IMG/VR virus record: IMGVR_UViG_3300010300_000058
Span: 1-31,344 of that record
Direction: 5' to 3' (one strand)
Origin: a virus
Length of the DNA stretch: 31,344 nt
A program made the translations under genes and the position numbers. Under the pieces are notes generated by a model. It did no database searches and was not told the origin of the DNA. It saw only the letters and a list, made by a program, of their open reading frames with translations. This document shows positions 541 to 29,244 of the stretch, piece after piece (positions within the stretch are counted from its first letter, which is position 1; every line of letters begins with the position of its first letter).

Positions 541-3500
541 ATGAAGGTTGTTGTTGGTCAAAACACGATCGTTAAAAAAATTACTGTTGGAACTCCATTA
601 CGGGTGGGATCGGCAGCAAATGGTTCACTCACAGGATTAGATGATGTAAACGGTTCTATTGGTTTAGCTAATGGTACTTTATTACAATACGACAGCGCGT
701 CAGGAAAATTTAATCACGTACCAGCAACGACAATAGCTGGTCCAGATATTCACGCCACATTTGATTCAAATGCGATTGGTACTCTTACATATAATGATAG
801 TACCGGAGCCGTAAGACTTGTAGGTCCGACTCCAGCTCAAATTCGATCGCAATTTAGAGCTCATCCATCTATCCATAATATTATTCAATATGACTCAGCT
901 ACTGGTACATTTTATGCTGAAGCTCCAGGTGGTGGAGGTATTGGTGATGGTGGTCAAAACTTATCAGTTAACACATCTGGCGATTACGGGTCATTATCTT
1001 ACAATCAATCTAATGCAGTTTTAACTCATGTCGGAACAACTGATTCTGACATTCGAGGATCTATATCAGTTGGCGGAGATCTTTCATATAATCAAGCATC
1101 TGGTACAATCACATATAATAAAAGAACAGATGCAGATATTAGATCTCTCTTTAGCGCTAGTGGAGATCTGACATATAATAGTACAACTGGTCAGTTTGCT
1201 ATTACTACTGGTGCACATTATGCAGATTCAGATGCTCGCCAAGTTTTCTCTGTTAACTTTGTTGGTGATACTGCATTTGATAGTTCTCCATACGGTGGAG
1301 CTTCGTATGATGCTAATACTGGTGTACTTACTATTAATGGTACAACCGATTCTAATATACGTAACTCTATCAGTTTAGAAGACTCTGGTGGTTTAGGGTC
1401 ATTAACATACGATCCTAAAGAAGGTAAATTTGTATTTAAAGGCCCTGAGCTTGCTGATATATCTTCTCTGCTCTCAGTTACTGAAGGTCCAACTTCATTA
1501 GGTGATCTATCTCTTGATTCTGCAACTGGAGCAATTAGATTTCAATTAGACGAAGATAGTATTAGAAGTTTAATATCTCTTGTATCTGATAATGAAGGTG
1601 GTACACATTTATCATATGATCATTCAACTGGTGTAATTACTTACAGAGGTCCAAGTACTTTAGAAGTACGCGATCTAATATCTGTTGATTCAACGGCTAA
1701 TACTGGTGATGGTTCATTCTCATATCATGAATCTTCAGGCGTGTTTACATATGTTGGTCCATCTCCTACAGAAACTAGAGCGCACTTCCAAGTTAATGAT
1801 ACTGGCGGTGATGGTTCATTAAATTATGATTCCGCAACAGGTAAGTTTACATATGTTGGCCCAAGTCCTGCCGAAGTAAGAGCCCACTTTGAAGGTGGTC
1901 TTGGTATTGATTATATTGAATCGACCGGTACTTTTAGATTAGATAGCTCAGCTAGTATTGTTACAGGTAGTATTGTTACAGGTACTTTAAGAGTAACAGA
2001 TTCGGCTACAATTGAAAATGCTACAATAAATCAAACATTAAATGTTCAAAATATTAATTCATTAGATTCCACTAGCGACGTTAATATTACTGCCGGTGAT
2101 GATGTTGATATCACAGCGGGAGATAAAATAAAATTAAATACTCCGCTTTTAATAACTTCATCTCGAACTCTTCACATTAGAGATGATGATAGTGATGCTG
2201 TTTCTCTTAACGGTAGTGGGATTGTTGTTGGCGGTGGATCTAACCAAAAAAGTATTTTGTATCAGCAAAGTACTGAGCAATTTGTAATAAGCGGAAATAC
2301 AGGATTAAATGTTCCTGGACCTTTAACCGGTACTACTATTGATTCAATTAATAAACGCATAGATGAGTTACCTGATTCTGCTCAGATGAAAGGTATTCTA
2401 TCTGCTGGTCCTGGTTTATCATACGATAATATAAATGGAATATACAGAATAACATCTTCGGGTGTTGTCGCTGGAACTTATGGCGATGCAACTAATGTTC
2501 CAAGATTTGCTGTTGATTCTCTTGGTCAAATAGATAGCATTAGCTTAGTTCCGATATCAACAGTCAATAACTTTCAGTTTGATTCCACAAGCGGCAATCT
2601 TAAGATTACAACTGCAACAGATAGTTATAATGTTGGAATTACATTAGATCCATATTCAACAGCAAACCTAGTTGAAGATCCTAATGCTACGCCAACATCA
2701 GGTACACAATATTTTACTGACGCAAGAGTTGATTCTAATTTAGCATCAAGTAGATCAAGTCCTATTGTTCGTACTGGTGACATTACTGGTGTAACATTAA
2801 ATGCAACTGGACCTACATCAGCTGGTGATAACGCAGCAGTTGGTTATACAGATTCTGAAGGTTTAATATTAACTGGTCAAGGTGATTCAAGTGATGTAAC
2901 AGTTAAGAATGATGCTAATGAATGGGTAATGAAAGTTCCAACAGGAACAAGAAATATTAACATTCATAGTAATCTAAATGTAGGTGGATTTGTTTCTGGT
3001 CCAGAAGAATTTATACTTGATCCAGCTGCTGTTGGTGATGCTACTGGTACGGTTAAGATTCTAGGTAACTTACAAGTTGAAGGTACTACAACAACAATTA
3101 ATTCAACTACAATATCTCTTAACGATAAAAATATTGTTATTGCCGATAGCGCAGCAGACTCATCAGCGTTAGATGGATCTGGAATTACATTTGGTGGTAC
3201 GAATGTTGTAGACAATCCAACATTTCAATATTCTCATGCAAACCAAAGATTTGTATTCAATAGAGATATAACAGCTAATAGATTCTATGGTGATGTTACT
3301 GGACAGATTACATCTATTGGAAATCATACTACAGCTGATTTAGCAGAAGATTCATTTGCCACAGTATCAAGTGGTACGATGTATTTTACTCAAGCAAGAG
3401 CTCGTTCCTCAATCAACTTTGTTGATGCTGGTGGCGATGGATCGTTTACTTACGACTCAGCTAACGGGACAATGACATACACTGGACCAAGTCCAGCAGA

Positions 3501-3984
3501 AACAAGGGCGCATCTAAATGTTCTTGATGCTGGTGGCGACGGCAGTTTTACATATGATAGTGCCACCGGAAAATTTACTTACACGGGTCCTTCGCCGGCC
3601 GAAACAAGAGCACATTTTCAAGTAAACGATACTGGTGGGGATGGATCTCTTGGATATGATTCTGCAACTGGTAAATTTACTTACACCGGACCTTCTGAAG
3701 CTGAATGGTATCAACATTTTGTAGATAATGCAGATAGCTTTGGTGATATGATTTGGGATTCAAGTTATGGAACCAAAGGTGGTCTGTCATTACATAAACG
3801 TCATATAATAAACCAACAAGAGGCGTTTGCTGACTCGTTTATCAATTCACAAGAATACTTTTTGTATTATAGTGGTACGTTAGGTGAATTAAGAAAGGTT
3901 AGTGCAGATACACTCTCCTCAAGAATTGGCGGAGCTGGCGGTGGTGGCGCAGGCGGCGGACTACTAAGTTATGTTAATCTCTAA
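541..3984 (+). CDS. Large repeat-containing tail fibre / virion structural protein
   Basis: An 1147-aa beta-rich fibrous protein. Most of it is built from degenerate repeats of about 34 residues: a YDSATGxF(T/V)Y core, GPSPAE(T/V)RAHF, then a D(T/A)GGDGS turn. The clearest copies are at residues ~390-450 and ~962-1060. The middle (residues ~470-560) switches to a regular pattern of Thr/Ile/Asp strands (SIVTGSIVTGTLRVTDSATI) typical of triple-helical or beta-helical fibre shafts. The C-terminus has a Gly-rich segment (GGAGGGGAGGG) before the last residues. Similar long proteins are found in marine T4-like phages as long-tail-fibre or fibre-hinge components; assignment to a T4 fibre gene (gp34-37) is not possible. 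Late expression from the box at 141 is likely. Confidence 0.65.
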   Translation: MKVVVGQNTIVKKITVGTPLRVGSAANGSLTGLDDVNGSIGLANGTLLQYDSASGKFNHVPATTIAGPDIHATFDSNAIGTLTYNDSTGAVRLVGPTPAQIRSQFRAHPSIHNIIQYDSATGTFYAEAPGGGGIGDGGQNLSVNTSGDYGSLSYNQSNAVLTHVGTTDSDIRGSISVGGDLSYNQASGTITYNKRTDADIRSLFSASGDLTYNSTTGQFAITTGAHYADSDARQVFSVNFVGDTAFDSSPYGGASYDANTGVLTINGTTDSNIRNSISLEDSGGLGSLTYDPKEGKFVFKGPELADISSLLSVTEGPTSLGDLSLDSATGAIRFQLDEDSIRSLISLVSDNEGGTHLSYDHSTGVITYRGPSTLEVRDLISVDSTANTGDGSFSYHESSGVFTYVGPSPTETRAHFQVNDTGGDGSLNYDSATGKFTYVGPSPAEVRAHFEGGLGIDYIESTGTFRLDSSASIVTGSIVTGTLRVTDSATIENATINQTLNVQNINSLDSTSDVNITAGDDVDITAGDKIKLNTPLLITSSRTLHIRDDDSDAVSLNGSGIVVGGGSNQKSILYQQSTEQFVISGNTGLNVPGPLTGTTIDSINKRIDELPDSAQMKGILSAGPGLSYDNINGIYRITSSGVVAGTYGDATNVPRFAVDSLGQIDSISLVPISTVNNFQFDSTSGNLKITTATDSYNVGITLDPYSTANLVEDPNATPTSGTQYFTDARVDSNLASSRSSPIVRTGDITGVTLNATGPTSAGDNAAVGYTDSEGLILTGQGDSSDVTVKNDANEWVMKVPTGTRNINIHSNLNVGGFVSGPEEFILDPAAVGDATGTVKILGNLQVEGTTTTINSTTISLNDKNIVIADSAADSSALDGSGITFGGTNVVDNPTFQYSHANQRFVFNRDITANRFYGDVTGQITSIGNHTTADLAEDSFATVSSGTMYFTQARARSSINFVDAGGDGSFTYDSANGTMTYTGPSPAETRAHLNVLDAGGDGSFTYDSATGKFTYTGPSPAETRAHFQVNDTGGDGSLGYDSATGKFTYTGPSEAEWYQHFVDNADSFGDMIWDSSYGTKGGLSLHKRHIINQQEAFADSFINSQEYFLYYSGTLGELRKVSADTLSSRIGGAGGGGAGGGLLSYVNL
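1798..1890 (+). repeat. Internal fibre repeat copy, 31 codons
   Basis: Encodes the DTGGDGSLNYDSATGKF core and GPSPAEVRAHF. It is nearly identical in protein to the copies at 3424-3720 but uses many different synonymous codons. It follows another, more divergent copy directly upstream. Confidence 0.7.
3424..3720 (+). repeat. Three tandem 34-codon fibre repeats
   Basis: Three consecutive units begin with Asp codons at 3424, 3526 and 3628, exactly 102 bases apart. Each encodes D(A/T)GGDGS, YDSA(T/N)G, TYTGPS and a closing E-containing helix start. The protein repeat is strongly kept while third codon positions differ between units. The last unit diverges after TYTGPSEAEW, where the shaft ends. 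Confidence 0.8.
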
Positions 3985-3995
3985 GTAACAAAACA

Positions 3996-4003
3996 TATAA
4001 ATA
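3996..4003 (+). promoter_or_regulatory. T4-type late promoter box TATAAATA
   Basis: Exact late-promoter octamer in the 50-base gap after the large fibre gene, 31 bases before the ATG at 4035. It would start transcription of the two small virion genes and probably the 1397-aa gene. Confidence 0.7.
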
Positions 4004-4034
4004 AAGAATAAGTAATCTAAAAAGATAATAAAAT

Positions 4035-4373
4035 ATGGCAGCAACATTTCATACTAGCTTTCAACATAATGTGGGAAAAACTCCACACACTTTGTATACG
4101 GCTCCAACAGGATTGACAGGACGTCATCTTGTTGTTAGTTGTGTTGCTACAAATATATTTGGTTCCGCTTTACCAATAACTGTAAAGTTAGTTAGAGGAG
4201 CAACAGAAATATACTTAGCTTATAATAAAAGAATTTTAGCTAATGATACTGTAGATCTCCTTATAAATAACTCTAAGATCATGATAGAGGAATATGATGA
4301 AATTCACACATCGGCTCCCGCTGACAATGCTTTCAGTATTATCATGACAATGGTAGAGGAAGTTGAAACATGA
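4035..4373 (+). CDS. Small virion-associated protein, 112 aa
   Basis: A 112-aa beta-rich protein starting MAATFHTSFQHNVGK with a TLYTAPTGLTG segment. This resembles the N-terminal part of small structural proteins encoded between fibre genes in marine T4-like phages, which present a jelly-roll-like sheet (compare VYTVPAGK in the gene at 8896). No catalytic motif, signal peptide or membrane segment is seen. It follows a late-promoter box and its stop overlaps the next start by four bases (ATGA at 4370), so the two small proteins are translationally coupled and may act together. Function unknown; a fibre or baseplate accessory is inferred from position. Confidence 0.55.
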   Translation: MAATFHTSFQHNVGKTPHTLYTAPTGLTGRHLVVSCVATNIFGSALPITVKLVRGATEIYLAYNKRILANDTVDLLINNSKIMIEEYDEIHTSAPADNAFSIIMTMVEEVET

Positions 4374-4645
4374 GTAGCGATAACAGTGTGTATGGTCATG
4401 ACAATCAAGGTGGTATCTATGAAGGTACTGCGTATCATGATAAAACATTCTACGGTTTTAAACTAAGTCCAGCAACTGGAGATTGTACTGTAGATGTTAT
4501 CCGAAGCGATGATAGCGATGCTGTCATTCTACCTCAACCAGATAATATTGGCGGCGACGATTATAAAGCGCATTTCTTTAGCATGGATGCGATAGATTTT
4601 GAATTCAACCATAGTACTGGCCATTTAAAGATGAAATTTCTTTAA
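4370..4645 (+). CDS. Small hypothetical virion protein, 91 aa
   Basis: A 91-aa acidic protein beginning MSSDNSVYGHDNQGGIYEG and ending GHLKMKFL. The C-terminal half contains the DAIDFEFNHSTGHLKMKF pattern, reminiscent of the YDSATGxF units of the large fibre at 541, so it may share a beta-hairpin fibre motif. It overlaps the previous gene by ATGA, pointing to coupled translation. A degenerate late-promoter box follows its stop. I do not recognise the family; a structural role is inferred only from the neighbourhood. Confidence 0.5.
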   Translation: MSSDNSVYGHDNQGGIYEGTAYHDKTFYGFKLSPATGDCTVDVIRSDDSDAVILPQPDNIGGDDYKAHFFSMDAIDFEFNHSTGHLKMKFL

Positions 4646-4651
4646 TAAATA
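4644..4651 (+). promoter_or_regulatory. Degenerate late-promoter-like box AATAAATA
   Basis: One mismatch from TATAAATA, 26 bases before the ATG at 4678. The spacing matches the exact boxes elsewhere in the window, but AT-rich DNA gives such matches by chance. Confidence 0.3.
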
Positions 4652-4677
4652 GCAGTATAGTAATATAGGATCGAAAG

Positions 4678-7600
4678 ATGGCAACGATTATAGACCTCGG
4701 TAAGTTAAGATTTCATTTTGCTGGTGAATGGAGTAACAGCACTACATATGAAATCAACGACATCGTAAAGTACGGTGGTAACGTATACGTATATAGTAAT
4801 ATAGCAAGATCAAATGGTAACTTGCCTACTGATGATGCATATTGGGCATTAATGGTAGAAGGATTTAAGTTTAGATCAGATTGGTCTTCGTCCACACAAT
4901 ATCGCGTTGGTGATGGTGTTGCTCATGGTGGTGTTATATACATTGCTATTGCAGATTCACAAAACCAGGTTCCACCTAATGCAACATATTGGAGTCAGTT
5001 TGCCGACGGTATTCAATGGGAAGGTGAGTGGGTTAATACTGGTACTTATCAAGCAAGTGATGTTGTAAAGTATGGTGCTCAAGCATATATCGCTAAACAA
5101 GATGTCCCGGTTGGAACCGATCCTACTAACGCTACATATTGGGAAACATTTGTAAGTGGTATCAGCGCCGAAGGCGTATGGAATGTCGGTACAGATTATG
5201 TCCCTGGAGACTTAGTCGCATACGGTGCAAACATATATCGTTGTATCGCTAACAGTACAGGCAACCTTCCAACTAATACAGGTTATTTTGAATTATTTCA
5301 AACTGGGAATGACTATCAAGGTGTCTGGTCATCAAGTGCTAGCTATTTAATTGGACAAACTGTTCGTTACGGTGGTAATGTATACAAAGCTAAACAAGAT
5401 AATACTGCTTCTACTCCAGATACTTTTACTAATGCTTGGGAAATCTTCACAACTGGCGTAAACAACAGAGGTACTTGGACAAGTACTACTGAGTATCAGA
5501 TAAATGACGTTGTTGCTCATGGTGGTAATACATATATTGCTCTTATCTCTCACACCGCCGGCGTATTTGATACTGACTTAGCCGCAAATAAATGGCAGAA
5601 ATTTAATAGTGGTGTACGCTATATGGGTGCTTGGACTTCAGGCACAACATATTTAAAAGACGACATTGTTAGTGAAAGTGTTAGTACATACATTGCTACG
5701 CAAGATCACACTGCAGGCTCAGACTTCTTCATTGATTTTAATACAAATAATTATTGGAATAACTTTGTGGTTGGTGCTAGTTATGTGCTTCCAGCAACAT
5801 CAGGAAATGCAGGTAAGTATCTACAAACACCAGACGGAACAAACTATAGTTGGCAATTTGCAGGTGCTAACGATAAGATCTTTTATGTGGCAGAAGATCC
5901 AACAAGTTCCGCAGATGATTCAGATCACGGTCTTGCAGTTGACTATGCATTTGCAAGTGTGAGATTTGCTTGTGATTTCATTAGCGCAGACCTCGCAAAT
6001 AGAACACCTGCTACTATCTTTATTAAAGACGGTACATATAACGAACAACTTCCAATTCATATTCCGGCCAATGTAACTATTGTGGGTGACGGACAACGTA
6101 ACTGTATTATTCAACCAGACACAACTACAGATATTGGTTATGGTGCTGGTATATCCGGTGATGGTACAACTCCAAACAATGAACAAACAATGTTCTTTGT
6201 AAACAGTGGTACAATGATTGAAGGTCTAAACCTAAAAGGTTTAACAGGATTTTCTTTAGGATCAACAACACCTACAGATCCTAACGATGCAACTATCAAA
6301 GGTGTTTACTTTAGATTAGAGCCAGGCGCTACTATTCTTAAATCTCCATATATTAAAGAATCAAGTGCATTTTCATCAGGTGGTGTTGGCGCAATTGTTG
6401 ACGGTTCTGTTGTCTCTAGCGGTAATCCTGGTTCAATGGTTTTCCATACATATACGCAAGTACATGATGGAGGTATTGGTTTCTGGATTAAAGATAACGG
6501 TCTTGCAGAGATCGTATCTTGCTTTACTTACTACTGTGATATGGGATTTGTATCTAGTGGCGGCGGTAAAATTCGTGCGCTAAACTGTAATAACTCATAT
6601 GGTACATACGGTACAATTAGTACTGGTTACGATAGTGATGAACTTCCAGTAAATGGTTATATGTATGGTGACACGATCACATATGATCCTTCAACATTGA
6701 ATACTTCTGATGGCTTTACAGTTGGTGATACTATTACAGGTCCTGCAAAGACTGGTAGTAGAATTGTAACAGATATGAGTATTGCTTCTCAAGCTGTTAT
6801 TTCTACTAAGAAAGATGCTACCGTATCAGCTGTCACGCAAGCAAGCCCCGGACAAGTTACAACTTCAGCCGCTCATGGATTTGAAACCGGTCAAAGTATT
6901 AAGTTTACCGGTGTGGGTGGTATGACAGAATTAAATGGTAATAGTTATACTATCACAGTTGTTGATACGACAAACTTTACAATTGGTGCCGATACCACAG
7001 CATTTACCGCTTACACATCAGGTGGTACAGCCACTCTCGGTGGAGCTCACGGTCTAGCAGACGGTGATATGATTTCATTTAGTAATGTTGGTGAAGCGGC
7101 ATGGCAAACACTTCTAGGTGATTATGCGGCTAACGATAAGCGCGCTTGGTATGCAGATATACAAGATAGTAACTCATTTAAAATAGCTACAAACTATGAC
7201 TTAACTAACTATTTTGATACAAGATCAGAAGCTGGTTGGGGTTTTGTCATTGTAAACTTCACAGATGCTACACGATCTAATCCAGTTCGAGTAACCGCGC
7301 CAAGTCATGGATTTAGTTCAGGCGATCAAATGACTGAAGTCAAAGATGTCGTAGGTATGACTGAACTAAATGGTAATAACTATTATGTTAGCGTAATTAA
7401 TGCAAACACAATAGATCTTTATACAGACGCCGGATTAACAAGTGCTGTTAACGGTGTTAGCTATGGTTCTTACACATCAGGAGGTAATGGTACAAGAACA
7501 CTAACCGGTACATCATTAACTGCGTGTGATTTTAGAGTTGATGATGCATTAGATGCAACAATTAAAAATATTCAGACAAATCTAGTAACTAATCACAGAC

Positions 7601-8871
7601 TAGTTGTATCAGATCAAAAACGAGGTCTATCAGGACAAACAATTAAAGTCAATGTTGGTCCCCCAGAATATTTGGGAACAGGAAACAGATTCTACTTTAA
7701 TGGTCAAATTGATCTAGCGTTTAACGGATATGATGAACGTCAATATATCTTTGAGCAGAACGATGCATCAAATGATTCACATCCAATGTACCTTGCTGAT
7801 ACTAAAAACTCAACTGGCGGGGCTAATGCATGGTCAACTGGTGTAAGTTATTATTTAGATGGACAACCAGTAGCCGACTTAGCAACGTATGTTGCAGGAT
7901 TTGCAGCTGCAACTGCTAGAGAAGTAAGATTTAAGATTCCTGCAGGACAAAGTGGATCACTATCATCCGTCTATATGTGTTGTCATACTCATGCAAATAT
8001 GGGTAATGGCCAACTGTATATCAATGCAGCGAGCGGAACTGCAAAAGAAAGATTTATTGGTAATCATCCAGTATTCTATCCGTTCTCAAATGGAGATTCA
8101 ATTGAGGCCCAAGATTCTCAAGGCGCGGTCATTGCTGGAGATGGAAACAGAGGTCAGTTTGGTTTCTCACTAGTTCTTGGTGGATTGAAAGAAGAGCCAA
8201 GAGCAGGTGGTAGTATTCAGTTTACTACTGGACCAGCATACGATAGTGATAACTCAACATATTTAACTAATCCAAGCCTAGGTGAAGATGATCGTAGTTA
8301 TATTATTACAACAGTAACTGGATATGACTCAAGTAACGATCCAAGAGTTGGTGGTACGGCTACTCTAACATTAAGCCAAGAAAAATTAAATACTGATCCA
8401 GCATATTATGGTCAGCACTTTAACATTAGATACAACTACTCACAAGTTCGTATGACAGGTCATGACTTCTTGAGTATTGGTACTGGTGGTAAAGCAACTA
8501 CTAATTATCCAGGTGAACCAACTCAAGCGGCCTCACAAGGTAACGAAGTTACAGAGACACTTCCAGGTCGTGTTTATTACGCAAGTACAGACCAAGATGG
8601 TAACTTTAGAGTTGGTAACTTCTTTAGAATTGATCAGGCAACTGGTCGAGCTACATTGGATGCAAGTGCGTTTGACCTTTCTGGTTTGACGTCATTAAGA
8701 CTAGGTTCAATTGGTGCTCAATTAGGTGAAAGTATTAATGAGTTTAGTGCTGATGGTACTTTATCCGGAAACAGCAATACAGCTGTTCCAACAGAACAAG
8801 CAGTTAAGACATATGTGGATTCCAAGCCGGGAATCTCAGAAGCTAAGGTTACCTTTATAGGAACATTTTAA
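4678..8871 (+). CDS. Large tail fibre/tailspike-like protein with seven binding repeats and beta-helix-like region
   Basis: A 1397-aa protein with three parts. Residues ~14-366 hold seven tandem ~50-aa repeats of the form W-x(5)-Y-x(3)-D-x-V-x-Y/H-G-G-x-x-Y-x-A ending in (Y/N)xW, with the lead Trp at 18, 69, 118, 168, 217, 267 and 319. This resembles chitin/carbohydrate-binding CBM5/12-type repeats. Residues ~400-700 look like a pectate-lyase-type right-handed beta-helix (IFIKDGTYNEQLPIHIPAN, then VTIVGDG). The C-terminus carries FRVGNFFRIDQATGRATL and VPTEQAVKTYVDSKPG, common in fibre ends of marine T4-like phages. No catalytic residues for glycan cleavage can be identified by eye. It probably binds or contacts surface glycans of the host. 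Confidence 0.65.
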   Translation: MATIIDLGKLRFHFAGEWSNSTTYEINDIVKYGGNVYVYSNIARSNGNLPTDDAYWALMVEGFKFRSDWSSSTQYRVGDGVAHGGVIYIAIADSQNQVPPNATYWSQFADGIQWEGEWVNTGTYQASDVVKYGAQAYIAKQDVPVGTDPTNATYWETFVSGISAEGVWNVGTDYVPGDLVAYGANIYRCIANSTGNLPTNTGYFELFQTGNDYQGVWSSSASYLIGQTVRYGGNVYKAKQDNTASTPDTFTNAWEIFTTGVNNRGTWTSTTEYQINDVVAHGGNTYIALISHTAGVFDTDLAANKWQKFNSGVRYMGAWTSGTTYLKDDIVSESVSTYIATQDHTAGSDFFIDFNTNNYWNNFVVGASYVLPATSGNAGKYLQTPDGTNYSWQFAGANDKIFYVAEDPTSSADDSDHGLAVDYAFASVRFACDFISADLANRTPATIFIKDGTYNEQLPIHIPANVTIVGDGQRNCIIQPDTTTDIGYGAGISGDGTTPNNEQTMFFVNSGTMIEGLNLKGLTGFSLGSTTPTDPNDATIKGVYFRLEPGATILKSPYIKESSAFSSGGVGAIVDGSVVSSGNPGSMVFHTYTQVHDGGIGFWIKDNGLAEIVSCFTYYCDMGFVSSGGGKIRALNCNNSYGTYGTISTGYDSDELPVNGYMYGDTITYDPSTLNTSDGFTVGDTITGPAKTGSRIVTDMSIASQAVISTKKDATVSAVTQASPGQVTTSAAHGFETGQSIKFTGVGGMTELNGNSYTITVVDTTNFTIGADTTAFTAYTSGGTATLGGAHGLADGDMISFSNVGEAAWQTLLGDYAANDKRAWYADIQDSNSFKIATNYDLTNYFDTRSEAGWGFVIVNFTDATRSNPVRVTAPSHGFSSGDQMTEVKDVVGMTELNGNNYYVSVINANTIDLYTDAGLTSAVNGVSYGSYTSGGNGTRTLTGTSLTACDFRVDDALDATIKNIQTNLVTNHRLVVSDQKRGLSGQTIKVNVGPPEYLGTGNRFYFNGQIDLAFNGYDERQYIFEQNDASNDSHPMYLADTKNSTGGANAWSTGVSYYLDGQPVADLATYVAGFAAATAREVRFKIPAGQSGSLSSVYMCCHTHANMGNGQLYINAASGTAKERFIGNHPVFYPFSNGDSIEAQDSQGAVIAGDGNRGQFGFSLVLGGLKEEPRAGGSIQFTTGPAYDSDNSTYLTNPSLGEDDRSYIITTVTGYDSSNDPRVGGTATLTLSQEKLNTDPAYYGQHFNIRYNYSQVRMTGHDFLSIGTGGKATTNYPGEPTQAASQGNEVTETLPGRVYYASTDQDGNFRVGNFFRIDQATGRATLDASAFDLSGLTSLRLGSIGAQLGESINEFSADGTLSGNSNTAVPTEQAVKTYVDSKPGISEAKVTFIGTF
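4717..5775 (+). repeat. Seven tandem ~50-codon CBM-like repeats
   Basis: Repeat starts are spaced 51, 49, 50, 49, 50 and 52 residues apart by the position of the leading Trp. Each unit keeps Trp, the Asp-x-Val pair, the Tyr-Gly-Gly turn and a second Tyr, while loops vary. Confidence 0.75.
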
Positions 8872-8895: not shown

Positions 8896-10416
8896 ATGAC
8901 ACAATCTCGACTTGCGTCTGCTAAAATTACTAAGAACACAAACCAATTAGTGTATACTGTTCCTGCAGGTAAATCTTTAGTAGGCTCACTTTTTATAAGA
9001 AATTTTAATAAAAACGGAAATTCTGCCAGTATAGATATTGCAACTACGCAAAATACTCTTGGTGCAGACTATCAATCAGCATCATTAGTTAATACAATAA
9101 ACTACACTTCTAGTAATACTGTTCCTATTGGGGTACCGATAGACGGACAACATTTAGCTCAAGGGGGTAGACTTACTGGTGATTTTAGAGCTAACTATAG
9201 TTATGGTAACCAGTATGCTCATTATGATGAAGCGACTGATACCGTGACCTATAACGTATATAACAACCAACATGGTTCTGGTCAATATATTATGAATAAC
9301 CAGTATATGGAAGGTAATTATCAGATTTCAGGGTTTTATACAGAACCAGATGATTATCTATTTATTCAACAAAATAGATATCCAAGAATTTTTAAAAATT
9401 ATCCTTGGACTTATACTACATCAGGAAATTTTAGTGATAATAGTGGTGGTAATATTGCAGGTGGTTATAATAACGATTTAGACTATTATACATATGGTGG
9501 TCAAGGTTTTAGAAACATATATATTTCTATGAATGATAATGGATACACTACTTATATGTCAAATATTAGTAAAGATCCTGCTAGTTTTAGTGGTAACAAG
9601 TATAACGAAACAAATACTTCTCAATCTTTTTATTGGCAAGAAAGCCAGCTTGGAGGAAAAGTTACTAAAGGTTCAATGTCTTTAATTCCAACTGCGCCAA
9701 GAACGTCTGGTTCTGGACTTTGGGCTGTTGTTCATGGAAATCTGAGTAGTAACGGTAATATGTGTTTGCAATGGATGCCTGTTTACGACTCCTCTGGAAA
9801 TCATATTAATGGTACAAATAACAGAGCCGGTTGGTATGGACAAGTTAATGCTTTGGCAACTACTGATAACGAATCCGAGTGGTATTGGTTACGGCCTGTA
9901 GGTAACTATGTTTATGCTGCTTCAGAATCTCAAGACGTATTTAGGGCACCTCTTTCTACTAATTTAGAATGGCAAACCCAATCTAATTGGTCTAAAGTCA
10001 CTAGTGATGTAGTACCTACCGGAAAACAAATTAACCAACACTTTCCGTTTATAGAAACTACTGCAGGTATCGGCTATGGTGCTTGTACAGATGGTAGCAT
10101 TATTACTAGCTTGGATCAAGGTGCAACTTGGACTCAAGGTGATCTTTCAGCAATATCAGGAGTTACTACAACATCAGGTGCTCAAGTAGCTGGTAAAGAC
10201 ACTTCAGGTGCTTTTGTAATTTACAGTGCCGATGGAAAATATGAATTGAATAAAGCTATTAGAGATAATTTACAAGATGCTATTGAAGTTGATTTAACTC
10301 TTAGCGCAAAAGGACATTTAGAGCATAGAGGACTAATCCTTAATGCAGGTGACAAAGTTTATGTTCAAGCAAGCCAAGATGATGTGGTTGCTCAACTTTA
10401 TGGATATGAGGAGTAA
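8896..10416 (+). CDS. Tail fibre / adhesin-like virion protein with Asp-box
   Basis: A 506-aa protein. Residues ~1-60 (LVYTVPAGKSLVGSLFIRNF) and the last ~45 residues (GLILNAGDKVYVQASQDDV then LYGYEE) match the two ends of a beta-sandwich seen in phage head/tail decoration proteins. Between them is a long insertion of ~400 residues rich in Tyr, Asn, Gly and Trp. It holds a BNR/Asp-box-like motif TSLDQGATW (Ser/Thr-x-Asp-x-Gly-x-x-Trp) and another Trp-rich strand (LEWQTQSNW), suggesting a beta-propeller-like region. Asp-boxes mark sialidase-type propellers, but catalytic Arg/Tyr/Glu sets cannot be assigned, so enzymatic activity is not claimed. An AAGGA ribosome site precedes the ATG, and the next adhesin gene begins 6 bases downstream. 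Confidence 0.55.
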   Translation: MTQSRLASAKITKNTNQLVYTVPAGKSLVGSLFIRNFNKNGNSASIDIATTQNTLGADYQSASLVNTINYTSSNTVPIGVPIDGQHLAQGGRLTGDFRANYSYGNQYAHYDEATDTVTYNVYNNQHGSGQYIMNNQYMEGNYQISGFYTEPDDYLFIQQNRYPRIFKNYPWTYTTSGNFSDNSGGNIAGGYNNDLDYYTYGGQGFRNIYISMNDNGYTTYMSNISKDPASFSGNKYNETNTSQSFYWQESQLGGKVTKGSMSLIPTAPRTSGSGLWAVVHGNLSSNGNMCLQWMPVYDSSGNHINGTNNRAGWYGQVNALATTDNESEWYWLRPVGNYVYAASESQDVFRAPLSTNLEWQTQSNWSKVTSDVVPTGKQINQHFPFIETTAGIGYGACTDGSIITSLDQGATWTQGDLSAISGVTTTSGAQVAGKDTSGAFVIYSADGKYELNKAIRDNLQDAIEVDLTLSAKGHLEHRGLILNAGDKVYVQASQDDVVAQLYGYEE

Positions 10417-10422
10417 AAATAA

Positions 10423-11286
10423 ATGAGTAGATATATAACAGGAGGTGCTACAGGTGCTTCAGGTGGATCTGGTGGTGGAGGCGGCGGTGGAACCGTTCGC
10501 CAAGAACGATTTATTTCATCAGGAACTTTTAACGTTCCATCAGGAGTAACTTCTGCTGAAGTTTTACTTGTTGCAGGCGGAGGCGGCGGTGGTCGCGGAT
10601 ATTCTTGGCAAGTCTCGCATGCAGGTGGTGGTGGCCAAGGTGGTCAAGTTAAATGCGAAGTAGTTGATTTAACTGGAATAGCTTCTTGTGCTATTATAAT
10701 TGGTTCAGGCGGACAAAGGACAAGCCACTCATCTAGTGATTCTTATAACAGTTATCCTGGAGGTAAATCTTCTTTTACTTATGGCAGTAATGTAATTGAA
10801 TGCGTAGGTGGACGTCAAGGTATTGGTGGTGGCGTTGGTGGACAAGGTGGACCTCACTGGCAAGATTATTATAATAGTAGAACCTCTCCAGATGGTGACA
10901 ATTATGGATATTATAGCAGCACCTGGTGGAATACGACGGGCGGTCATACTCGTGGTGCTGGTGGTCACGGCCGTGGAAGTGATGGTAGTGGTAACTATAA
11001 TATGCATGGTATGCCCGGAATGTACGGCTATGGCGGCGGTGGTGGAGGAGGTTACTACTCCAGTAGTAACTCGCAAGCCAAAGGTGGTCAAGGTTCAGAT
11101 GGTGGCGGCGTAGCTTCTTCTTATGACTGGTGGCATGGTGGTCCTGGAGGTGATAACCAAAGTAAAGCGTATCATCGATGGGGTGAGAGAAATACTGGCG
11201 GTGGTGGTGCTGGCGGCAATTACAACCAAAACGAAGAAGGCGGTTCTGGTGCAGCTGGCATTTGTATTGTCACTTATACGGTTTAG
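10423..11286 (+). CDS. Glycine-rich distal tail-fibre adhesin
   Basis: A 287-aa protein with very high Gly, Ser, Tyr and Asn content. After a poly-Gly N-terminal segment it has ERFISSGTFNVPSGVTSAEV then LLVAGGGGGG, the standard opening of glycine-rich phage adhesins. Later Gly blocks (GGGGGGGYYSS, GGGGAGGNY) alternate with variable Tyr/Trp/His loops, and the end (AAGICIVTYTV) is a typical closing strand. In T-even phages, glycine-rich adhesins (gp38 type) sit at the fibre tip with polyglycine-II-like loops that contact the receptor; a similar receptor-binding role is inferred. The gene lies between a fibre gene and a likely chaperone, a usual tip-module order. The reverse strand and other frames are open here only because of the repetitive GGN codons. 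Confidence 0.7.
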   Translation: MSRYITGGATGASGGSGGGGGGGTVRQERFISSGTFNVPSGVTSAEVLLVAGGGGGGRGYSWQVSHAGGGGQGGQVKCEVVDLTGIASCAIIIGSGGQRTSHSSSDSYNSYPGGKSSFTYGSNVIECVGGRQGIGGGVGGQGGPHWQDYYNSRTSPDGDNYGYYSSTWWNTTGGHTRGAGGHGRGSDGSGNYNMHGMPGMYGYGGGGGGGYYSSSNSQAKGGQGSDGGGVASSYDWWHGGPGGDNQSKAYHRWGERNTGGGGAGGNYNQNEEGGSGAAGICIVTYTV

Positions 11287-11297
11287 GAGAATAGATA

Positions 11298-11792
11298 ATG
11301 GCACAATTTAATATAATACAACCTAAAGAAGCAGCTGATTCAGATGAAAATCATGAGCAGTATATTGTTAATATTATTGAAGCTGACGATATGGAAGCTG
11401 CAGAATCTGTTACTGATACAGAAGTAAGTTTAATTATACAAAATTCAGGTGATGGCGAAGGTATTGGATGGATATATAATCCTGATAATAGCTCAACTCC
11501 CTTTTCTGCACCTGCAATTGAAGTACCTCCAGGCTTTGATCAAGCAGCTTTTAAAGAACATTTAAAAACAAATGTAAAAGCAGAAGCACGAAGCCGTATT
11601 GAAGCTCTTGCTTGGAAAATTGAAAAAGCTACTGAACAAGATGCTTTAAACGGTACTACAACAATTAATGATGTTTATGCAGAAAGAGAAGCTATTCGAG
11701 TTAAAAGTAACGAAATTGAAGCTGATATAGACGCTGAAACAGATGATTTAACAGTATTCACTATGGGTACTGTAGTTAAGTTTGACGAATAA
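11298..11792 (+). CDS. Possible tail-fibre assembly chaperone
   Basis: A 164-aa acidic protein. Residues ~1-85 look like a small beta domain (MAQFNIIQPKEAADSDENHE, then WIYNPDNSSTPFSAPAIEVP). Residues ~88-150 form a long predicted helix rich in Glu, Ala and Lys (SRIEALAWKIEKATEQDALN). The layout of a short N-terminal beta domain, a P-rich linker and a helical C-terminus, directly after a distal adhesin, is that of tail-fibre assembly proteins (Tfa/DUF4376-like), which fold or attach fibre tips. The Shine-Dalgarno AGGAGA overlaps the stop of the adhesin gene, so the pair is co-translated. Assignment rests on position and architecture, not on a clear motif. Confidence 0.45.
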   Translation: MAQFNIIQPKEAADSDENHEQYIVNIIEADDMEAAESVTDTEVSLIIQNSGDGEGIGWIYNPDNSSTPFSAPAIEVPPGFDQAAFKEHLKTNVKAEARSRIEALAWKIEKATEQDALNGTTTINDVYAEREAIRVKSNEIEADIDAETDDLTVFTMGTVVKFDE

Positions 11793-11795
11793 ATA
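11788..11795 (+). promoter_or_regulatory. Degenerate late-promoter-like box AATAAATA
   Basis: One mismatch from TATAAATA, overlapping the stop codon of the preceding gene and 44 bases before the heme oxygenase ATG. A 7-bp hairpin lies between box and gene. It is the only late-type signal seen before the bilin cassette, and it is weak. Confidence 0.25.
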
Positions 11796-11802
11796 AATGA
11801 TT

Positions 11803-11819
11803 TTGCGGCTCAGCCGCAA
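11803..11819 (+). terminator. Hairpin (7-bp stem, TCA loop) without T-tract
   Basis: TTGCGGC and GCCGCAA form a perfect stem around TCA. No T-run follows on either strand, so it is not a standard intrinsic terminator. It separates the adhesin cluster from the heme oxygenase gene and may be an RNA-end stabiliser or processing site. Confidence 0.45.
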
Positions 11820-11839
11820 CTAGATAATGAGTAAATAAT

Positions 11840-12370
11840 ATGGCGCTTAGAGATCATATAAAAGAAAATCATGATCTTGCTGAAAATCACCCCTTTGTAA
11901 AACTTTTGTTTTCGGGGGGTGTTTCCTCAAAAATTTATGCTGAATACTTATTTAATCAACACTTAATATATAATGTGTTGGAAAAAATTGCTTTAGAACA
12001 AGGTTTGTTAGAAGGTGTAGAAGACGTAATAAGAGCAAAATTAATATTAGAAGATTTTATAGAATTAAAAGAAACAGATATTAAAGTTCATGATTGTTCG
12101 TTAGACTACATTAAATACATACAAACTAAAGTATCTAAAGAAAATTTAATGGCACATATTTACGTACGACACTTTGGCGATTTATTTGGTGGACAAATGA
12201 TGAAAAAAGTTGTTGTAGGCTCTGGTAAGATGTATGATTTTAAAAATAGATCAGAACTTATTCAAGAATTAAGAAGTCGTTTAGATGATAGTTTAGCAGA
12301 CGAAGCTAACGCAGTCATGCTTTGGGCAATTGAGTTATTTAAAGCTTTGGAAAAACGATTTGATCTTTGA
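11840..12370 (+). CDS. ho1: Heme oxygenase (biliverdin-forming)
   Basis: A 176-aa heme oxygenase, converting heme with O2 and electrons to biliverdin IXalpha, CO and iron in the host cytoplasm. The N-terminal helix HDLAENHPFVKLLFSGGVS aligns with the proximal-histidine helix of HO-1 (HTQAENAEF), making His11 the probable heme ligand. The distal helix is at residues 107-121 (IYVRHFGDLFGGQMM), with Gly113, Asp114, Gly117 and Gly118 matching the GDLSGGQ signature; Asp114 corresponds to the catalytic Asp140 of human HO-1. It is shorter than cyanobacterial HO1 (about 235-240 aa), mainly at the C-terminus. Its 3' end overlaps the bilin reductase gene, so the product is probably passed to that enzyme. 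The ribosome site is weak. Family call is confident; regiospecificity is inferred. Confidence 0.9.
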   Translation: MALRDHIKENHDLAENHPFVKLLFSGGVSSKIYAEYLFNQHLIYNVLEKIALEQGLLEGVEDVIRAKLILEDFIELKETDIKVHDCSLDYIKYIQTKVSKENLMAHIYVRHFGDLFGGQMMKKVVVGSGKMYDFKNRSELIQELRSRLDDSLADEANAVMLWAIELFKALEKRFDL

Positions 12371-13010
12371 AAAACTTATAGAAACAAGTGAACGAATGAG
12401 AGATCTTATTGAGTCTCTTGCTACTACTAAACACAATCATGACTTTCCTTGGCCTGCGACAACATATTTGTCTCCTAGTATTTGGCGTAGAGCAGACTTA
12501 GATATTATTGATGCAAGAGAAGATCGTAAATTATGGATGATGCATCTGTGTGTATATCCACATACAAACGATCCTGCTCCGATTTATGGTTTTGATGTTA
12601 TTGCCGGACCGAATAAAGTAACTGGAGCTTTTCATGACTTCAGTCCTATTGATCCGAATAGTCATATATTAACACAATTTAAAGAGAATGTACACAGTTT
12701 TATTCCATCAAAACAAAGAGAATTACCTGATTGGGCAAAAGCTATTTTTAGTGGTTCTATGGTTTCTGCTGGTAATATTAGAGATCCAGAAGAATTACAG
12801 AATTTATTAGATCTTGCCGTTAATAATCTTGATTACTTTATTCATAATATAGGAATGAGCACTAAACAAGATTTTACAAAAGAACATAACTGGTATGCAA
12901 TCAATCAAAAGAAAAATCCACATACACCAAGAGTTATGGAGAACATGGGAGTAGCTCCTGATGTCGTTAGGAAATATATAGACGAATGCTTATTTCCTGA
13001 GATTAGCTAA
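12360..13010 (+). CDS. pcyX: Ferredoxin-dependent bilin reductase, PcyX-like
   Basis: A ferredoxin-dependent bilin reductase of about 216 aa, reducing biliverdin to a phycobilin with electrons from ferredoxin. Numbered from the TTG at 12360, the core is WMMHLCVYP at 59-67, IYGFDVIAGP at 75-84 and FHDFSPID downstream. His62 and Asp79 align with the catalytic His88 and Asp105 of PcyA. The PcyA Glu76 position reads as Asp48. The C-terminal motif QKKNPHTPRVME aligns with PcyA QKQNDKTRRVLE, so the Asp220 position is Pro. The small size, fusion-free form and partner heme oxygenase fit PcyX, the oceanic-virus enzyme reported to make phycoerythrobilin. The start is uncertain: TTG at 12330 or 12360 keeps the N-terminal helix FEKLIETSERM; ATG at 12396 would remove it. 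Every option except 12396 overlaps the heme oxygenase gene. Confidence 0.87.
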   Translation: MIFEKLIETSERMRDLIESLATTKHNHDFPWPATTYLSPSIWRRADLDIIDAREDRKLWMMHLCVYPHTNDPAPIYGFDVIAGPNKVTGAFHDFSPIDPNSHILTQFKENVHSFIPSKQRELPDWAKAIFSGSMVSAGNIRDPEELQNLLDLAVNNLDYFIHNIGMSTKQDFTKEHNWYAINQKKNPHTPRVMENMGVAPDVVRKYIDECLFPEIS

Positions 13011-13388
13011 TCATGCTCTACGTTTCTTTTCTCTTTGAGAGTCGCCCATAGAGACTCTGTAATTATCTTCAACTGAATCTGGCGTAGAAACTTCTAATAA
13101 TGTACCCTCTTCAATACAGATAACTTGATGAGGAACTAAAGGTTCGTTTCTATGAACTCCACCTGCTTCTAATCTTTTACGTTCAACAGATGCATCTTTT
13201 GTATTAATAACTAATATATCAAACACTCCATTCATTACATACCAAGTCTTATCTTTGTCTTTATGAAAGTGCATAGAACACTTTGCACCTTTATTAAACT
13301 GCAAAAACTTTCCACAGTACATGTCATTGGTTGCCCAGATAAATTCATGGCCCCAACCTTTTTCTATAAATCCTTCAAGTTGTGTCAT
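13011..13388 (-). CDS. Cupin-fold protein (mannose-6-phosphate-isomerase-like)
   Basis: A 125-aa single-domain cupin, the only reverse-strand gene in the window. Residues 10-15 (KGWGHE) and the sequence around MHFHKDKDKTWYVMNG at 39-54 match small type-II mannose-6-phosphate isomerase/GDP-mannose pyrophosphorylase C-terminal cupins. Metal-ligand candidates are His40 and His42 (motif 1) and His87 in VPHQV (motif 2); the usual motif-1 Glu appears as Lys47. Such proteins bind sugars or small ligands and the substrate cannot be told from sequence. Its stop codon abuts the stop of the bilin reductase with no gap. A strong sigma70-type promoter lies just upstream, with the -10 only six bases from the ATG, so its mRNA is probably leaderless and it is expressed apart from the late genes around it. 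Confidence 0.75.
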   Translation of the reverse strand: MTQLEGFIEKGWGHEFIWATNDMYCGKFLQFNKGAKCSMHFHKDKDKTWYVMNGVFDILVINTKDASVERKRLEAGGVHRNEPLVPHQVICIEEGTLLEVSTPDSVEDNYRVSMGDSQREKKRRA

Positions 13389-13467: not shown

Positions 13468-14223
13468 ATGGCAGCTCCAGCATCAAGACAAGGATTCATC
13501 GATTATTGTCTTCGTAGACTTGGCGATCCAGTTATTGAAATAAACGTGGACGACGATCAATTAGAAGAACGAGTAGACGATGCCCTGCAAGTGTATCAAG
13601 AATTTCATTCAGATGCAACCGTTAAAACTTATCTTAAACACCAGGTAACTCAAACTGATGTAGACAACGGTTACATTCCTATCTCATCTAATATTATATA
13701 TGTATCTAGGTTATTACCGATTAATTCATCATTTGGATCTTCGCGTAATTTCTTTGATATAAAATATCAGTTGATGTTAAATGATATTGCTGATATGCAA
13801 AACTTTGCAGGTGACTTAGCTTACTATGAACAATTACAACAATATCTATCGTTGCTAGATATGAAACTAAACGGTCATCCGCAGGTAGAATTTGCTAGAC
13901 GCCAAGATAGACTTTATATACATGGTTCGTTTGCAGATCAAGAAATAAAAGCTGGCGAATTTGTTGTTGCCGAGATATATCAAATAATAGATCCAGATAC
14001 TCATACAAGTGTATATGATGATATGTGGTTAAAAGAATATGGAACTGCTCTTATAAAACAGCAATGGGGCGCAAACCTAATTAAATTCGAAGGAATGCAA
14101 CTACCAGGTGGCGTTACACTAAATGGTCGACAAATATTTGAAGATGCTTTAGGAGAAATAACACAACTCAGAGAACGAATTAGATTAGAACATGAACTTC
14201 CCCCTAACTTTTTTGTAGGTTAA
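13468..14223 (+). CDS. 13: Neck protein gp13
   Basis: A 251-aa homologue of T4 gp13 (309 aa), a head-completion neck protein that with gp14 forms the connector collar where the tail docks. The N-terminus (FIDYCLRRLGDPVIEINVD) matches the T4 opening LKDVILRRLGAPIINVELT. The C-terminus (MQLPGGVTLNGRQIFEDAL, then LRERIRLE and PPNFFVG) matches T4 MMLPGGVTIDGQRLIEEA and PPFGILVG. It is shorter than T4 gp13, mainly in the middle loop region. It begins the compact neck-terminase-tail run; the next gene starts one base after its stop. Confidence 0.92.
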   Translation: MAAPASRQGFIDYCLRRLGDPVIEINVDDDQLEERVDDALQVYQEFHSDATVKTYLKHQVTQTDVDNGYIPISSNIIYVSRLLPINSSFGSSRNFFDIKYQLMLNDIADMQNFAGDLAYYEQLQQYLSLLDMKLNGHPQVEFARRQDRLYIHGSFADQEIKAGEFVVAEIYQIIDPDTHTSVYDDMWLKEYGTALIKQQWGANLIKFEGMQLPGGVTLNGRQIFEDALGEITQLRERIRLEHELPPNFFVG

Positions 14224-14224
14224 T

Positions 14225-15097
14225 ATGGCACGCAATATATACTTCTCTGACAAAGTTCGATCAGAACAAAAGTTATATGAGAATATTATTATAGAATCGT
14301 TGAAGATGTTTGGACAAGATGTCTATTATCTTCCACGAACTATTGTAAATGAAAATAGAGTGTTCGGAGAAGACGTTCCATCTAGATTTAGTAACTCTTA
14401 CAAGATTGAGATGTACATTGAAAACACAGAAGGATTCGAAGGAGAAGGAGATCTCTTCACTAAGTTCGGTGTTGAGATACGAGATGAAGCTACTTTTATC
14501 GTCGCTCGCAAACGTTGGAATACTACGGTTGGTCGCGTTGATAACCAAATAGAAGGTGAAAGGCCAAGAGAAGGAGATCTAATATTTCTTCCATTGTCTA
14601 ACTCTTTATTTGAGGTTATGCATGTAGAGCACGAACAGCCATTTTATCAATTGTCTAATCTACCAACATTTAAGATGCGTTGTCAGCTATTTGAATATTC
14701 TGGCGAAGATCTTGATACTGATATTACATCGATTGACGGGATAGAACAAAACAACGCCTATGAGTTTGATATGGTTCTATCTGGAATAACCGGTGATTTT
14801 GAAATAGGAGAACGTGTCGAACAAATATTATTAGATGGCACGATCTTAGGAGCTGAAGTATCTAAGTGGGTATCGGACACAAATACTCTTTCGGTTATAC
14901 ATCTAGGCGGAAACGATGGTAAGTTTCATTTACCCTCAACTGGTAGAGTAATTACCGGACAAGAATCAAATGCTAGCGGTACAGTTTCGTCATTCACCGA
15001 AGATAATCAACTAAGCGCAAATGAGCAAAATAATGATTTTGACGGATTAGATTTTATAGACTTTAGTGAAACAAATCCATTTGGAGATCCTGAATAA
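14225..15097 (+). CDS. 14: Neck protein gp14
   Basis: A 290-aa homologue of T4 gp14 (256 aa), partner of gp13 in the neck. The match is in residues ~20-165: IIIESLKMFGQDVYYLPR, FGEDVPSRF, then REGDLIFLPLSNSLFEVMHVE and PFYQLSN, aligning with T4 [47 protein letters not shown] and PFYQLGQ. A C-terminal part (~185-260) carries an added beta-like section (SGITGDFEIGERVEQILLDG) before an acidic Asn-rich tail, explaining the extra length. Its last codon overlaps the gp15 start by one base. Confidence 0.92.
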   Translation: MARNIYFSDKVRSEQKLYENIIIESLKMFGQDVYYLPRTIVNENRVFGEDVPSRFSNSYKIEMYIENTEGFEGEGDLFTKFGVEIRDEATFIVARKRWNTTVGRVDNQIEGERPREGDLIFLPLSNSLFEVMHVEHEQPFYQLSNLPTFKMRCQLFEYSGEDLDTDITSIDGIEQNNAYEFDMVLSGITGDFEIGERVEQILLDGTILGAEVSKWVSDTNTLSVIHLGGNDGKFHLPSTGRVITGQESNASGTVSSFTEDNQLSANEQNNDFDGLDFIDFSETNPFGDPE

Positions 15098-28665: not shown

Positions 28666-29244
28666 ATGAAACCTAAAGATAGACCACATTATGTAAATAA
28701 TGCACAATTTTCAACAGCAGTAGTAGAATACGTTACAGAAGTAAGAGAGGCCAAATCTAAAGAAGAGGCTCTTCCTGTTGTTCCCGATTATATTGCCCAA
28801 TGCTTTCTTAAAATAGCAGAAGGACTTTCCCATAAATCAAACTTTATTCGATATACTTATCGTGAAGAAATGGTTATGGATGCAGTCGAAAACTGTCTTA
28901 AAGCAATCGAAAATTATAATTTAGAAGCTGCCACAAGATCAGGTAAACCTAATGCTTTTGCATACTTTACTCAGATTTCTTGGTACGCATTCTTACGTCG
29001 TATTGCCAAAGAAAAGAAGCAACAAGATATTAAATTTAAATATATGTCTCAGTCAGGAGTAGAAGCTTTTCTACTAGATGAATCTGAAACAGGAGTTGCA
29101 GCTCACTTTGTTGATACTCTTAAAGATAGAATAGAAAAAATTAAAGATTACGACACCGAAATAAAAGAGTTTGCAAAGAAAGAAAAGAAACGTAAAAGAC
29201 CAGTACAAAAAGTAGATTCTGATTTGGTGAAGTTTTTTAAATGA
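28666..29244 (+). CDS. 55: Late-transcription sigma factor gp55
   Basis: A 192-aa homologue of T4 gp55 (185 aa), a small sigma factor that directs host RNA polymerase to TATAAATA late promoters. It shows the T4 pattern: YVNNAQFSTAVVEYVTEVRE (T4 YVNNKELLQAIIDWKTELA), LKIAEGLSHKSNFIRYTYRE (T4 LIAEGLSKRFNFSGYTQSW), EEMVMDAVENCLKAIENYNL and PNAFAYFTQISWYAFLRRIA with KEKKQQDIKFKYM. The six exact late boxes in this window are its likely targets. The C-terminal DLVKFFK may be the clamp-binding tail that contacts gp45. Its stop overlaps the next start by four bases. Confidence 0.93.
   Translation: MKPKDRPHYVNNAQFSTAVVEYVTEVREAKSKEEALPVVPDYIAQCFLKIAEGLSHKSNFIRYTYREEMVMDAVENCLKAIENYNLEAATRSGKPNAFAYFTQISWYAFLRRIAKEKKQQDIKFKYMSQSGVEAFLLDESETGVAAHFVDTLKDRIEKIKDYDTEIKEFAKKEKKRKRPVQKVDSDLVKFFK

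Follow-up and report, generated by a model that had tools for sequence, protein, structure and literature searches.

A viral sequence of 31,344 bases (the window, by which we mean the whole stretch of DNA analysed) carries overlapping genes for a heme oxygenase (HO) and a PcyX-type ferredoxin-dependent bilin reductase (FDBR); both genes are intact, belong to the right families, keep their catalytic residues and are under purifying selection. We consider it probable that they form a two-enzyme pathway from heme to phycoerythrobilin, which would be late cargo of a T4-like marine phage. Judged by gene neighbourhoods, the pair appears to accompany one tail-fibre family as it moves among unrelated phages.

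PHROG and Pfam matches show that the window covers the region of a T4-like myophage that encodes fibre, neck, tail and head; its virus record may be a fragment. Genes for a gp13-type adaptor, gp14 and gp15 lie downstream of the cassette, and a tail fibre and a Gly-rich adhesin-like gene lie upstream (Table 1). The same matches identify genes for terminase, sheath, tube, portal, protease, scaffold and major head protein, together with UvsY, a helicase, a late sigma factor (at 28666) and an SbcD-like nuclease. The initial annotation had placed an HO gene overlapping a reductase gene between an adhesin cluster and gp13 in a T4-type morphogenesis region. This layout is right, with the addition of a reverse-strand cupin gene, absent from that account, between the reductase and gp13. 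An assembly chimera at 11.8-13.4 kb, which had also been raised, is unlikely because a separate 135-kb contig, L002, keeps the gene order of the window (fibre, adhesins, HO, reductase, cupin, gp13, gp14, gp15) at 65-97% protein identity, with one additional carbamoyltransferase-like gene between reductase and cupin.

Table 1 Features of the window in and around the bilin cassette.
Feature	Position	Strand	Basis
112-aa gene, part of shared fibre block	4035-4373	+	Homologues in group B contigs, same location, 24-31% identity
91-aa gene, part of shared fibre block	4370-4645	+	Homologues preceding the fibre in group B contigs and L051, 33-53% identity
Tail fibre, 1397 aa, cassette-linked family	4678-8871	+	PHROG 9851; family match and neighbourhood scans
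506-aa adhesin-region protein, no family match	8896-10416	+	74% identical in L002
Gly-rich adhesin-like protein	10423-11286	+	Pfam PF21722, 2e-13
164-aa gene before HO, no Pfam or PHROG match	11298-11792	+	79% identical in L002
ATAAATA, T4-late-promoter-like, 44 nt before HO	11789-11795	+	Position and comparison with group A loci
Heme oxygenase (HO), 176 aa	11840-12370	+	PF01126, 5e-15; His11, Asp114, Gly117, Gly118; AF2 and Foldseek
Overlap of HO stop and reductase start, 11 nt	12360-12370	+	
PcyX-type ferredoxin-dependent bilin reductase, 216 aa, TTG start	12360-13010	+	PF05996; 5owg, E 2e-55; Asp48, His62, Asp79; AF2 and Foldseek
Cupin gene, tail to tail with reductase	13011-13388	-	PHROG 7851, 6e-39
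gp13-type neck/adaptor protein	13468-14223	+	PHROG 211
gp14 neck protein	14225-15097	+	Pfam PF11649, 2e-40

The gap between the reductase and gp13 is variable. In L001, L007, L013 and L016 it holds reverse-strand genes for carbamoyltransferase, cytidylyltransferase-like, HAD and cupin proteins in changing sets; of these sugar genes the window retains only the cupin, and L016 has alaS in addition. On the other side of the cassette, a short GC-rich inverted repeat (TTGCGGC...GCCGCAA, 11803-11822) can be seen by eye between the 164-aa gene and HO and appears different in L002 and L013; an Rfam scan of the window gave no match.

Identity of the two enzymes and closest known systems

The HO protein scores 56.2 bits against Pfam Heme_oxygenase (cut-off 23) and has both features on which it had been named, His11 and the distal GDLFGGQ stretch. 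His11, Asp114, Gly117 and Gly118 are unchanged in all 27 aligned HO sequences. The predicted fold agrees: the AF2 model (pLDDT 94.7) is all-helical, and all 50 Foldseek matches listed are heme oxygenases, with TM up to 0.87, so that proximal His, distal Gly-rich helix and fold are all those of the family. Comparison of the window with its relatives gave dN/dS values of 0.07-0.27 for HO (NG86, four pairs) and 0.045-0.16 for the reductase (NG86, six pairs).

The program-made open reading frame of the reductase begins at a TTG at 12330. We rejected this start, and 12360 is most likely the true one, giving the 216-aa protein and the 11-nt overlap, because 15 of the 18 close relatives with both genes (group A, the window's group) have an in-frame stop between the equivalents of TTG 12330 and TTG 12360, and 8 of the 18 have an ATG exactly at the position of TTG 12360, so placed that it overlaps the HO gene, stop codon included, by 11 nt. 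The residues His62 and Asp79 given in the initial annotation are correct in the numbering of this shorter protein.

The reductase falls within the FDBR family by Pfam (Fe_bilin_red, 42.6 bits, cut-off 31) and by its predicted model (AF2, pLDDT 91.9), for which the top Foldseek matches are PcyA and PcyX. Its best solved relative is PcyX_EBK42635 (5owg, E 2e-55, as against 1e-9 for the best PcyA). In a tree of 67 rows, which left out the short L017, L020, L045, L084 and first extraction of L067 and also P-RSM6 PebS, the window stands beside L001 in a group of 18 rows (100/100). This group is part of a PcyX clade of 62 rows (98/93) to which Mosig and 5owg belong, while P-SSM2 PebS and the four PcyA rows fall outside it; all PcyA rows are from cyanophages, and the nearest cellular lineage is alphaproteobacterial PcyA. 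The position of Asp48, equivalent to Asp55 of PcyX, is Asp in 62/62 rows of the PcyX clade and Glu in 4/4 cyanophage PcyA, and His62 and Asp79 are retained in 62/62. We take these last two to be His69 and Asp86 of PcyX, numbers that fit the offset of 8 seen in the 5owg alignment. PebS was considered and rejected, P-SSM2 PebS being a far outgroup with Asn at the His62 position. Tree and residues thus bear out the earlier reading of PcyX rather than PebS, and place the enzyme in the PcyX type, apart from cyanophage PcyA and PebS.

We think it very unlikely that the reductase has PcyA activity and makes phycocyanobilin, as in phage CB_2. According to PMC10151467, PcyX and alphaproteobacterial PcyA form one lineage, and our tree holds cyanophage PcyA only; against this, PMC11480375 describes Asp55 as PcyX-specific and absent in CB_2, and the window has the corresponding Asp48.

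Cassettes of this kind are already in print. Pelagibacter phage Mosig EXVC030M (MT647606) has overlapping hemO-pcyX genes immediately upstream of gp13, and marine hemO-pcyX cassettes with or without alaS, near gp13, are reported by Wegner et al. 2024 (PMC11480375), where the contigs were assigned by gp13 to pelagiphage-like myophages, grouping with two isolated pelagimyophages. Because Mosig and these contigs carry hemO-pcyX near gp13, the window cassette is a further member of the published kind. The find is therefore less novel than the initial annotation implied, the cassette of a SAR11 phage at the same site and its marine relatives having been published (PMC11480375).

Several differences separate the window from these systems. 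Mosig shares the HO gene overlapping the reductase just upstream of gp13 and a fibre of the same family upstream; its reductase is 43% and its HO 35% identical to those of the window. Beside its pair, Mosig has a ferrochelatase and four genes annotated as 2OG-Fe(II) oxygenases, and its genome encodes a Fer2 ferredoxin at another place; none of these was found in the window. PcyX_EBK42635, from an uncultured oceanic virus, belongs to the same family and has the same Asp/His/Asp residues, the alignment covering residues 35-226 of the window protein in its 226-aa reading, but sits beside Mosig in the tree and in a different 70%-identity cluster. The cassettes of PMC11480375 share the two genes and their place near gp13; unlike the alaS-bearing ones, the window and its 135-kb and 152-kb relatives have no alaS, which as a third gene gave a full match only in the L016 record and a 42-position match, below the cut-off, in the L015 record. 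Cyanophages with ho1, pebS or pcyA (P-SSM2, P-RSM6, P-SSM7 and others) share the heme-to-phycobilin logic in T4-like phages, but their enzymes fall in other clades, with Glu in PcyA for the PcyX Asp and Asn in PebS at His62.

Linkage to a tail-fibre family and exchange of the two genes

Homologues of the block at 4035-8871, consisting of the 112-aa gene, the 91-aa gene and the 1397-aa fibre, also precede the cassette in contigs that gave no match to the window's gp13-gp15. Of the cassette loci with 5 kb or more of upstream sequence, 29 of 32 contain the fibre family: 9/12 in the window's group (all but L015, L016 and L019), 14/14 in group B (L021-L042), 5/5 among L051-L056, and Mosig; L049, L050 and L057 duplicate L013, L002 and the window and were not counted. 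These carriers appear to differ in virion type. Both group B contigs that were sampled, L022 and L029, have an internal-virion-protein gene, and L051 and L053 have a J-type central tail fibre. T4 gp23 was not found in the 11 group B and four L051-L055-type records searched (up to 62 kb), an absence that is weak alone because 4/9 records of the window's group, being fragments, are also without gp23. We read group B as podophage-like and the L051-L055 type as siphophage-like, which widens the range of the cassette beyond myophages. The words tail, fiber, siphovir and podovir are absent from the main text of PMC11480375, and we found no mention of the fibre linkage or of podophage-like or siphophage-like carriers in the available portions of the PcyX literature searched.

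The linkage was also examined from the side of the fibre. With its C-terminal part as bait and at least 9 kb downstream, HO or the reductase lay downstream in 32 of 56 loci among the best 80 matches; 20 of these had both genes, seven the reductase alone (some with alaS) and five HO alone, four of which end just past HO while L136 does not. Sorted by fibre identity, again among the best 80 matches, HO or the reductase was present in 3/3 loci at 85% or above, 13/18 at 65-85%, 15/23 at 55-65% and 1/12 below 55%. The N-terminal part of the fibre as bait, with at least 5 kb downstream, gave HO or the reductase in 7/21 loci among the matches listed. Among the matches listed for a gp13 bait, which are mostly distant relatives and include few of the window's close ones, HO or the reductase was found in 2/10 loci with 9 kb upstream and 3/27 with 3 kb. 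All baits were drawn from the window and the fibre-bait loci were picked by similarity to its fibre; many IMG/VR loci are near-identical contigs of different samples, so that these numbers count contigs, not independent events.

The fibre matches 130 records in the named phage collection, mostly partially and mostly in cyanophages. Because Mosig alone among the 130 has a PcyX-type match, the fibre by itself does not imply the cassette; Mosig is also the only such match in the collection as a whole, the other 13 reductase matches coming from cyanophages, where PcyA or ferredoxin oxidoreductase is the usual annotation. Conversely, the L212 lineage has the cassette and no fibre match within 7 kb. 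The linkage applies to cassette carriers and to the nearer marine relatives of the fibre, and there it provides a handle on which phages, and via the fibre perhaps which hosts, to examine.

Within the cassette, the two genes have different histories. The window HO is 98% identical to that of L013, 97% to L002 and 88% to L051. The window reductase, by contrast, shares 98% identity with that of L001, although the HO proteins of these two are only 41% identical. In the HO tree, which left out the partial L003 and L052, the window, L013 and L002 fall inside the siphophage-like L051-L054 clade (100/99). Forcing the HO sequences of the window's group together was rejected (AU p 0.0006), as was forcing the reductases of the window, L002 and L013 together with those of L051-L054 (p 3e-48), both groupings having been named after trees or identities had been seen. 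In 60-nt blocks of DNA, the window is 82-97% identical to L051 over 11841-12320, while the three preceding blocks give 42-47% and those that follow 35-80%; compared with L001, it is 92-100% identical from 12381 on. Because L051-like identity is confined to the first interval and L001-like identity begins at 12381, the exchanged piece, on this comparison, comprises the HO gene, beginning at about its start codon and ending a little ahead of the reductase gene. The window's HO allele is probably of siphophage-like origin; since it sits within the L051-L054 clade, the transfer would most simply have run from siphophage-like to T4-like phages. Separate exchange of HO and PcyX implies that the pair works with interchangeable parts.

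Such mobility would fit a passive hitch-hiker that persists only through a recombination hot spot behind the tail fibres: HO has been exchanged on its own, neighbouring sugar genes come and go, and some relatives have only one of the two genes. With dN/dS far below 1 and the catalytic residues kept in 62/62, however, we regard this explanation as improbable.

The pairing itself is regular: in 48 of the 49 loci with both genes (L001-L055, the window and Mosig; duplicates dropped), the reductase follows HO with no gene between. Some individual loci depart from the usual layout. In L025, a 2OG-Fe(II) oxygenase gene (3948-4523) lies between HO and the reductase and breaks the usual overlap. A reverse-strand pair of alaS-like and FDBR genes follows the same fibre family in L094 (10211-12063), L096 and L104, and HO was not detected in the examined stretch of these three. 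The HO of L136 (8212-8787) is 89% identical to that of L139, which has both genes, but in L136 no reductase occurs in the next 2.7 kb; L111 has HO, and no reductase was found in its examined stretch.

Timing, host and possible role of the pathway

We take ATAAATA to be the core of the T4 late promoter. By number it is not enriched in the window (15 found vs 17 expected). Its placement is distinctive: on the plus strand, 9 of 13 copies fall in the interval 10-80 nt ahead of a gene, which takes up 6.8% of positions (p 2e-8, uniform binomial), and none of 20 other words of the same letters matches this, the next best reaching 5/10. The motif occurs within 120 nt before HO in 13/15 group A loci whose upstream sequence reaches 120 nt or more, and in 1/29 other loci; L002 and L013, which share the window's HO allele, have no exact copy before HO. 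Because ATAAATA precedes HO in most group A loci, we infer that the pair would be expressed late. The motif thereby predicts the stage of infection at which the pathway acts, and Mosig on HTCC1062 offers a cultured system for that prediction.

The capsid and portal of the window are nearest those of Phage C48C1 (67% and 70%; host not stated). The OM43 phage Melnitz comes next (64% and 53%), closely followed by cyanophages and pelagiphages. For the Melnitz line, a past host change from SAR11 to OM43 is proposed in PMC9004378. The host of the window is probably not a cyanobacterium. A copper protein of the plastocyanin/azurin family (PF00127) with a signal-like start is encoded in the 135-kb relative (G001; L292:4603-5031), and presumably it is of the pseudoazurin type, which is proteobacterial-looking; it had no match in the phage collection. 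A proteobacterial host would be suggested by this reading of one copper protein and by one distant relative in culture. The 135-kb relative has two tRNAs and the 152-kb relative one; the gp23 gene of the latter (G002:C1:110962-112079) is broken by in-frame stops, perhaps through sequencing error or an intron.

In the proposed pathway, HO would open heme to biliverdin IX-alpha, with release of Fe2+ and CO, and PcyX, made from the overlapping start, would reduce biliverdin with four electrons to phycoerythrobilin, the likely donor being host ferredoxin. Activity and product are predicted from Asp48 and the tree. A Fer2 ferredoxin was found in Mosig only among 29 records searched (27 cassette records, C48C1 and Melnitz; most are fragments).

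What phages of non-photosynthetic marine bacteria gain from a phycobilin is called enigmatic in PMC11480375. We tentatively suggest, as a possible answer, that late in infection the host heme pool is destroyed, with iron recovered and biliverdin removed, and that the reduced bilin is a selected product, in a redox or protective role, and not the chromophore of a phage-encoded photoreceptor. Iron release as the sole benefit would make the reductase dispensable, yet it is mostly kept. Use as a chromophore would require an acceptor, and the known kinds are not encoded in the 29 records, none of which has a PHY domain or a phycobiliprotein family (0/29); the earlier suggestion of a phytochrome chromophore thus finds no support in phage-encoded apoproteins.

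The acceptor could instead belong to the host: the bilin would then serve one of its photoreceptors or its antenna, the use proposed for cyanophage ho1, pebS and pcyA. PcyX is related to enzymes that feed phycobiliproteins and phytochromes, and the PcyA of phage CB_2 can supply a phytochrome, according to PMC11480375. Nevertheless, we consider host light chemistry quite unlikely. A photosystem reaction-centre gene (PF00124) was found in 3/3 cyanophages (P-SSM2, P-SSM7 and P-RSM4) and in 0/43 cassette- or FDBR-bearing non-cyanophage records, most of them fragments, nor was it found in the window or in the 135-kb and 152-kb relatives, in agreement with the earlier remark that no photosystem gene appears here; phage-borne PHY and phycobiliprotein families are missing from the 29 records; and the one cultured carrier, Mosig, infects Pelagibacter ubique HTCC1062. 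To our knowledge, this bacterium has no phycobilisomes.

Iron capture had also been put forward, and the released iron might supply phage Fe(II) enzymes encoded beside the cassette, such as 2OG oxygenases, perhaps acting on fibres. The oxygenases and ferrochelatase beside the Mosig pair fit this, and 2OG-type genes adjoin the pair in L037, L025, L084 and L081. Strong in such single cases, the linkage is not specific once a control set is compared: the two Pfam families occur in 14/30 cassette records and in 6/20 fibre-bearing or cultured controls, and neither occurs in the window or in the 135-kb relative, although the relative does have two TauD-type dioxygenase matches. On this comparison, we regard iron supply to neighbouring oxygenases as unlikely.

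The fibre linkage allows a broader proposal, that the bilin pathway travels in a transferable host-recognition package, in which one fibre family, on at least three virion architectures, would carry heme-to-phycoerythrobilin synthesis as linked late cargo with its enzymes mixed and matched, and the bilin would be useful through the hosts that the fibre recognises or through assembly or adsorption events. We offer it as a speculative, rather unlikely reading.

Four genome matches to PcyX (L081-L084), with Hsp20-ClpS-HO-PcyX contexts, were considered as cellular PcyX and rejected; we read them as phage contigs in metagenome bins, because one of them, a 335-kb "Neomarinimicrobiota" contig, also has a T4-type gp23, and the other three by analogy, gp23 not being found in their bins. 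On this 335-kb contig, L083 (47233-55763 of the 335,231-base contig G028:C57), genes for an IMPDH/GMP reductase, Hsp20, a ClpS-like protein, HO, a nitrilase-like protein and PcyX lie together, and gp23 is at 237745; this contig is probably a jumbo T4-like phage. In L081, a ClpS protease-adaptor gene (3155-3457; Pfam ClpS, 1e-28) directly precedes HO, and similar open reading frames can be seen by eye in L082, L083 and L084. A ClpS adaptor beside heme breakdown may point to the turnover of hemoproteins.
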